A DNA stretch of 64,000 bases from contig NC_132896.1 in the NCBI RefSeq assembly GCF_030463535.1, forward strand, positions 19,325,709-19,389,708, written 5' to 3'. The position numbers were made by a program, and so were the translations under genes. The notes under the pieces were generated by a model. It was given only the letters and a program-made list of their open reading frames with translations. It was not told the DNA's origin and ran no database searches. Positions 6,548-9,500 of the stretch are shown here, piece after piece (position 1 is the stretch's first letter; every line of letters begins with the position of its first letter). This DNA is from Salminus brasiliensis. Its lineage: Eukaryota; Chordata; Actinopteri; Characiformes; Bryconidae.

Positions 6548-9500
6548 CTAGCAGGAGCAGCTGCTCTCAGTCACAGGCAGTTCTGGAGGCTTCTCCAGTT
6601 TGATATCAATCACTGAGAGAATTAGGTTAAGGGCAGTCAACTTGAATACATCAGAAACTCGGAAAGTGTAGATGTGACTCAGTTTCAAGTTAAACATGTT
6701 TTGCTCATATTCTCAAGTCAACTTATCTAATTCCCCCCCCCCTCTAGACTATATCCTCCATTATTAGACTATATCCTCCACATGGCAGAGTCACAACTAG
6801 AGCAACAAGGATACTGTCCTCTTTGCTTTTCTCTGGTGTGCTATCCATCCCGGGCAAGGCTGCTGCAACACGTCGGAACAGCTGTAAAAATAAACAACAA
6901 ACAAATAGTGAAATCAGTTCTCTAATAATGCCACACTGAGCCAGTTAACACCAAGCATATCTGAATATACTTTGACCGGATTCTGCTTATACTTGTCACT
7001 ATAATGCATCTCCAGTGTGACCAGATGAGAATTGATTTTACTTGCCTGTGTTGTTAAAAAAAAAAAAAAAAAAAAAAGGAAAAAGGACATAGTTTCTGAT
7101 TTAATTCCAGTAAACAGTGGGTTCTCATTATGGTTGTCCAATTTATCGCATTCCCATAATGGCTTAATCAGAAAACATGAAAAGATTCTCTGTTTGATCA
7201 CAGAAAACACAACCTGTTTATTCTTTTGTTAAATGTGGATGAGATTCACCTCTGACCACCTCCAAATGTGGTCTGAGTGATGCGAGCGTAATTCAATCTT
7301 GATGCATCCTAGGGAAGGTTACACCTGTTATTTTGAGCACCGAAATCCAAAAGTGATCCGATCGCCAAAAAGGCATGTTAATGCCAGGTGTAAACAGGCT
7401 CATTGTGACCAATAAATGTAAATTGTAGATAGATAACTACACTGACACTGTACAGTTATTCTGTACTATTAAAAAAAGGTTTAAGCAAATGCATGATTTA
7501 AATATTCTGATTACAAAGGCAATACTACAGGAGACAGGCCATGCTAATCTACTTTGTAAGAACATATGTCTCCACGTCCAAAACAAGGCTTGCTGAAGTT
7601 GCAGTATTTCACCAACATGCAAATTTAAATGGCGCAGGTCACAAGAAGTGCTACAAGCAAGCAAACTCCAAACACAAACAAAATTTGATAAAGACAATTG
7701 ACCAAAGAGCAAAGGAGACCAATGAGCAGCCTTTAGCAGAGGACGCTATGCATGTGAAGTGTGGGGAAAAACATCTGACAACACTGACTGAGTGTGGGTG
7801 AGGCCAGAAGGGATAGCAAAACAAAAGGAAATGCGAGAGTGAGACACAGAGTGAAACAGCGGCATAGAGAGTTGGCTGATGGGGGGCAGGTGGTAGGTGG
7901 GGCTGGCCTGTCCTTGTTTCACTGAGTCTATACCTGTTTGACATTGTAGCCAGTCTTTGCACTGGTTTCAATGAACATGACATTCAGTTCCTTAGCCCTC
8001 TGTTCGCCCTCCTCCGTGGTGATCTGTCTGCTCGGGCCCAAGCAGGAGGGGTGGGACACAGATAGACAAAGGGGAGAGAGGAGAAAAAAAAACAAAAAAA
8101 AAGCCAACAAAAAATAGAAAGAGAAGGAAACAGAGAGAGAAAAAGAAGAAAAGAGACTCAACTTCAAATTAGTAAGGAGGAAAAGGAGAAAGATTAGTTG
8201 TCTGATAATATGCTGAGAAGAAGAAACAGCAGCCTTGAGAGATTACCAAACATCTCAGCAAGTGTCAAGTCAATCAGAGAACACCAACAAATTAATTCAA
8301 AACAACATTAATGACGTGGCCAAATCCACAATCAGTAATATCTTTGAAGAAAGTGCTCACTGACCCATTCATTGGGTGAGCTAAATGCACACTACACGAT
8401 TTCAGCCTCAAAGTTCCTATTACTGACACATTTTTGACAACAGCTATAAATGTGACGACTGTACGAATGTTCATGTGGCGTGACTTTTCAGGTCTGCAAA
8501 AGGTTTTTGGAGAAAAGAACTGCAAATATTGAATACAGCTGCTGTCCACTGCCACTCAGAGCAACCTATTATATACACTTATAAATATTCTTAGCAGTGT
8601 TCTGTGTGTTTAAGTCACCCCCGTCTCTCAAGTTTCAGTTTAGCACATCAGACAAGTTTATATTACAGTGGGGTGTTGTCATCTGTTGTGCATCAAGAGT
8701 ACTTCTGTGATTCTGAAAGTCGTGTAGTGTCCACTAGGCATTAGTCAAATCTTAACAAAACCTGCTATTTAAGACCCACCTGCTTGACGTTATACCCAGC
8801 CTTGGCGCTGGTCTCTATGTACATCACACTGAGCTCCCGAGCTTTTTTCTCTGCAGCCTCTACTGAAACTTGCCTGCCACAGTCCAGCGGAAAGGAGGTG
8901 TGTGAAAATGGTTCAAATCATAATGAAGATGGAAAGACAGAAGTCATAAAAGGGAATCAAAATAAATGAAATCCAAACGAGGCATGCAATGGAAAAGCAA
9001 TAACCTTACATAAAAAAGGTTAACATAATTCCAACTTTGGTGATGAGGAGGAAACTGTACCAAAATCATAAGGATTAAATAAGTAAAATGAAATGAGACA
9101 CTTAATACATAAAGCACATGGCTTGAAGAAGAATGAAGCCTTTGCATTTGGACTGGGAGAGGCTTTTCACACTACTGTGATATTCATACTATTTATCAGG
9201 CCAGCACGACCAGTACGACTTGTACAAATAGCCACAGAGTTCCACTTCCATCATGACTGTACCTTTTATCAGCCAAGTCTGTTTTGTTGCCAACCAGCAT
9301 GATAATGACATCACTTCCTCTCTCTGTTCTGACATCATCTATCCATTTGGAAGTTTGCTGGAAGGAGTTGAGATCTAAAGCACAAAAAGAAAACACTGAC
9401 ATAGATCTCCTTCAGCTGCTCTTTAATCTGCAAAAAAACAATCACACTCACTGTATGTCAAAAGCAAGCCATCAGAGGAAAGTGCACATGAGGACTGTTA

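Follow-up and report, generated by a model that had tools for sequence, protein, structure and literature searches.

The splicing of RAB6A into its RAB6A and RAB6A' forms is already known (PMC3735572), and a mutually exclusive RAB6A event has been reported in human (PMC4914109). The related Rab6b is brain-preferential, and its reported GTP binding is weaker than that of Rab6a (PMC3735572). In fish, trout Rab6a was among the top brain-specific splicing forms, the exon involved being unspecified (PMC8321248), and rab6a was found among the genes differentially spliced at heatwave onset in a reef fish (PMC8933327). At a more general level, tandem duplicated exon substitutions are homologous exons that replace one another, and most of them are ancient (PMC9741552). 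RAB6 does not occur in the main text of that report; the exon pair analyzed here, named 6A and 6B, likewise consists of homologous exons that appear interchangeable. The search of the open-access literature found no description of an exon 6 pair in either RAB6A or RAB41, and database gene predictions may list such isoforms. As far as we could find, this pair is therefore not previously described, and its sequence suggests that it belongs to the known kind of mutually exclusive tandem duplicated exons.

The window analyzed is the whole 64,000-nucleotide stretch of Salminus brasiliensis DNA. A minus-strand gene at 6548-13603 has ten coding exons, and its introns have GT-AG borders. The coding part of exon 1, with the ATG, lies at 13525-13603, and it is followed on the same strand by exon 2 (12370-12428) and exon 3 (12104-12157). 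Exon 4 is present twice, with 106 bp in each copy: exon 4a, of the Rab6A' type (IRLQ...DSAAAV), at 11571-11676, and exon 4b, of the Rab6A type (VRLQ...DSTIAV), at 9838-9943. The polypyrimidine tract of exon 4a is poor (41% ahead of the acceptor), and the donor of this exon, gtaggt, is the same as that of exon 4' in a second gene on contig C16. Exon 5, at 9263-9374, would be joined to either 6A or 6B. Exon 6A (8780-8873; RAB6A-type) has the acceptor ...ctgtggcag and the strong donor CAG|gtgggt, and exon 6B (7934-8027; RAB6B-type) has the acceptor ...cccgagcag and the donor CAG|gtatag, which is weaker than that of 6A. The gene ends with exon 7 (6815-6881), whose donor is gtatcctt, with a U12-type look, and exon 8 (6548-6612), which closes with ...SCSC and the stop codon. 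Intron 7 (6613-6814) combines this donor with cccttaacc near the acceptor and looks like a minor (U12-type) intron when judged against the U12 consensus; the same donor was seen in rab6a, rab6ba and rab6bb.

Both copies of exon 6 measure 94 bp and are separated by 752 bp. They share one phase: an Arg codon, split after AG, is completed by the first base, and a codon ends at the last base. They are homologous from end to end, with 60 of 94 nucleotides identical. This agreed with what the sequence-only reading had claimed about size, phase, splice borders and homology; the 11 differing residues it counted were also found, out of 32 rather than 31 once the split Arg is included. When either peptide was compared with the 64-kb window, only itself and the other copy were recovered (E 7e-12), the next matches being at E 0.73 and 1.0. 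All four combinations of one exon 4 copy with one exon 6 copy gave an open frame of 211 aa up to ...SCSC and the stop, as anticipated by the earlier proposal of four possible proteins, and the other 12 of the 16 exon 4/exon 6 combinations were broken. A transcript with both copies of exon 6 meets an early stop 125 nt upstream of the last junction and is expected to undergo NMD. With neither copy, the early stop falls just within the last exon; NMD is not predicted in this case, and the predicted product is a truncated protein without the ETSAK loop and the C-terminal cysteines. The rule that exactly one copy must be used thus held. The spliced products matched the Pfam Ras domain PF00071 with E-values of 6.4e-59 (6A form) and 2.2e-60 (6B form), the only NCBIfam match above the cut-off was a generic small GTP-binding domain, and the closest PDB relative was Rab-6A, whose chains carry the 6A type. 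The exon 4 pair resembles the exon 6 pair in belonging to the same family, in being made of tandem duplicated exons and in its frame rule. The exon 6 pair, however, lies further along the protein and differs at 11 of 32 residues, compared with 3 for RAB6A/RAB6A'.

When the 6A peptide was scanned against the genome in six frames, 13 matches had E of 10 or less. The strongest six were 6A and 6B of the window, two exons on contig C16 (5221651-5221746 and 5220874-5220969), and single exons on C7 (21318127) and C11 (2182409), and the seven others had E of 0.07 or worse. The C16 gene, named rab6a for the reasons given below, carries 6A followed by 6B, both of 94 bp and separated by 683 bp, in the same order as in the window gene. 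Over its exons 4-8 the four single-choice combinations were open, and those with both or neither copy of exon 6 were broken; no exon 1 of this gene turned up in the 20.6 kb examined. The matches on C7 and C11 belong to two copies of rab6b (rab6ba and rab6bb), with one exon 6 each according to the genome scan and to the 90 kb of C7 and 3.1 kb of C11 inspected. The exon 4 scan returned 18 matches at E up to 1e-5, and the six best of the 18 were distributed exactly as those of exon 6, two on C19 (the contig of the window), two on C16, one on C7 and one on C11, the remaining twelve having identities of 64% or less. Therefore, both pairs, with both RAB6A/RAB6A' types of exon 4, are common to the window gene and to rab6a, and the genome scans found no second exon 4 or exon 6 in either rab6b copy, the local search of C7 and C11 agreeing for exon 6. 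RAB6B differs in being a gene of its own, with a single exon 4 and a single exon 6, whereas in the window gene a similar sequence would be an optional exon; the likeness is close, as the exon 6 peptide of fish rab6ba, identical to PDB Rab-6B, agrees with 6B in 30 of 32 residues. When the stretch from exon 5 to exon 7 was compared between the window gene and rab6a, no match had E below 0.3 apart from the exons themselves and a few bases at their borders. A search with the exon 6 alignment in collections of genome and viral contigs gave 38 and 63 pattern matches, among which no vertebrate relative was confirmed.

That C16 rab6a has this pair too, with 6A again ahead of 6B, contradicts the idea that the pair is peculiar to one gene and gives independent support, from a second gene, to the mutually exclusive reading. 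The name rab6a given earlier to the window gene did not stand either. The gene pdzd11 was found about 9 kb away and convergent with the window gene, RPL39 at 41556-42763, NDUFA1 at 52040-55022 and NKAP at 56704-57119. The human counterparts of the RPL39-NDUFA1-NKAP block are X-linked, with RAB41 beside PDZD11, and this neighbourhood presumably differs from that of RAB6A. The best RAB6A match among the Rab6 genes of this genome was the C16 gene and not the window gene: in exon 6A it encodes exactly the peptide of PDB Rab-6A, and its tail shows, by eye, 2 differences from PDB 4dkx. The adjacency to pdzd11, the RPL39-NDUFA1-NKAP block and the near-human C16 gene indicated rab41 as the most fitting name for the window gene and rab6a for the C16 gene; given the human gene order, the window gene is most likely the rab41 orthologue. 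COA4, used as a synteny marker for rab6a, gave no convincing match in the 20.6 kb of C16. Also seen in the window were SNORA69, on the minus strand between two RPL39 coding blocks (42347-42474), an ankyrin ORF (38136-39158), and Tc1/mariner-like transposase ORFs (PF01498) on the plus strand at 43784-44473 and 59490-60341. To the left of the window, between 19225709 and about 19282000, C19 carries large tandem arrays whose repeated units resemble ORFs; among exact 31-mers that occur twice, the main spacings are 19,635 and 7,835 bp.

Constraint was measured as the identity at codon positions 1 and 2 against that at position 3, with a Fisher test. Between 6A and 6B, identities were 49/62 and 11/32 in rab41 (p 2.8e-5) and 52/62 and 16/32 in rab6a (p 7.2e-4). 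Across the genes, the 6A exons gave 54/62 and 10/32 (p 7.2e-8) and the 6B exons 59/62 and 18/32 (p 9.0e-6). All 15 pairs among the six copies of exon 6 were tested, and the weakest p was 3.4e-3. The dN between 6A and 6B was 0.197. Of the three pairs for which rates were calculated, none had a defined NG86 dS or any YN00 value, and LWL85 returned a value for one. The substitution pattern, which had been put forward as a means to expose decay into a pseudo-exon, showed changes concentrated at third positions in both copies, and the codon comparisons indicate that both 6A and 6B are under purifying selection at the protein level. The mutually exclusive reading is hence consistent with the frame arithmetic, the splice borders and the selection on both exons, with the gene name corrected. 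Adjacent homologous exons of equal phase, a frame broken with both in or both out, and constraint on each copy are the features found here that speak for this class.

The trees of exon 6 bear on the age of the pair. In the protein tree of nine rows, the 6B exons of rab41 and rab6a were on one side together with rab6ba, rab6bb and RAB6B (support 88/99), and in the DNA tree the two 6B exons were united (94/93), with 72/87 for the split of 6A from the rest; these trees rest on 32 residues, and no branch was starred. The rab41 6A had a long branch (0.54) and differed from PDB Rab-6A at 7 of 32 residues. At six sites diagnostic for RAB6A or RAB6B, scored by eye, the RAB6A state was found at 6/6 in rab6a 6A and at 4/6 in rab41 6A, and both 6B exons had the RAB6B state at 5/6. 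Fly Rab6 (PDB 2y8e) has the RAB6A state at all six, which makes the 6B states derived and shared. The duplication of exon 6 probably preceded the separation of the RAB6A, RAB41 and RAB6B lineages, with rab6b presumably retaining just the 6B type and a single exon 4, and the choice between the copies would go back to early vertebrates. A separate duplication in each gene, with a recent tandem event in rab41, is very improbable: tandem exon duplication is common, and when the copies of each gene were forced together the AU tests on DNA were borderline (p 0.0476 and 0.0647, on either side of 0.05), but the protein tests rejected this arrangement (p 0.00049 for rab41 and 0.00073 for rab6a with PDB Rab-6A), third positions of 6A and 6B are near saturation (11/32, with NG86 dS undefined), and the two genes agree in the order and phase of the copies, the first base being A in both 6B exons and G in the other four copies. 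It also seems quite unlikely that 6B was copied from rab6b into rab6a and rab41 through ectopic conversion or exon capture. The RAB6B residues at five of the six diagnostic sites of 6B would be accounted for by such an event; nonetheless, rab41 6B and rab6ba share 15/32 third positions, a value inside the span of the other exons in the comparison (8/22 in exon 8 to 22/35 in exon 4b). This argues against a recent transfer and puts any transfer at roughly the age of the paralogues; such an event must also have preceded the rab6a/rab41 split or have occurred twice.

Two further explanations touch on the function and identity of the exons. That one copy of exon 6 is degenerating into a pseudo-exon, or is seldom spliced in, is hardly credible when borders, length and phase are kept in both copies of two genes and the changes are mostly at third positions, even though in both genes 6B has a weaker donor than 6A, and rab41 6A is fast-evolving. 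The window gene could instead be a second teleost rab6a copy, derived from the teleost genome duplication, as its protein tail is by eye nearer to RAB6A than to RAB6B; we consider this unlikely for a gene beside pdzd11 and within the RPL39-NDUFA1-NKAP block, a block that is X-linked in human, where RAB41 adjoins PDZD11. The reading we prefer, at a probability of about 0.8, is that 6A and 6B are functional copies of exon 6, one of which would be spliced between exons 5 and 7, and that the pair is ancestral. On somewhat less firm ground, we consider it fairly likely that the ancestral vertebrate Rab6 gave four proteins through 4/4' and 6A/6B, that RAB6B was frozen in the 4+6B combination following the vertebrate genome duplications, and that fish rab6a and rab41 continue to produce both forms through splicing.

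How the choice is made may be approached through the splice signals. The predicted U1 pairing was -11.4 and -12.2 kcal/mol for the 6A donors, -7.2 and -8.0 for the 6B donors, and -12.2 for the exon 6 donors of rab6b. Ordinary donors as weak as those of 6B were also present (rab41 exon 2, -7.1, and exon 5, -6.8; rab6a exon 5, -8.1), so a weak 6B donor is by itself no proof of regulation. The 200 nt ahead of rab41 6B (8028-8227, minus strand) are 79% pyrimidine, a value that 2 of the 6380 200-nt windows on the same strand reach, and contain many UCUU/CUCU motifs. In rab6a, by contrast, the corresponding 200 nt are only 53% pyrimidine, which makes the PTB part of the mechanism weak. The RBFOX motif TGCATG was not enriched between exons 5 and 7 (2 seen, 1.15 expected). 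Spacers of 752 and 683 bp are too long for steric exclusion, and exclusivity would thus come from competition. In the mechanism we propose, 6A, with its stronger donor, would be the default exon, and 6B, whose donor is the weaker one in both genes, would depend on an activator or on relief from a repressor; in rab41, PTB bound to the long pyrimidine tract may act on 6B, this regulator being a guess. Products with both or neither copy would be useless. Judged by Rab structures, exon 6 encodes alpha4, beta6 and the G5 loop, and the swap would alter helix alpha4 and replace A by T at the residue that follows the guanine-binding ETSAK loop. The choice of 6B would give a RAB6B-like G domain, possibly in brain, a use that we offer as a hypothesis in view of the brain preference of Rab6b and the brain-specific splicing of trout Rab6a.

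RAB6A/RAB6A' is the textbook exon swap among Rab proteins, and the exon 6 pair would be a second swap in the same gene, common to two paralogues and, if the ancestral reading holds, with an unusual history. This second swap apparently became fixed as RAB6B, which makes it a clean test case for the partitioning of splice isoforms among genes once a genome has duplicated. If true, RAB6A-like and RAB6B-like G domains would be interchangeable inside a single gene, and much of the difference between RAB6A and RAB6B would lie within one gene that can be edited exon by exon in fish.
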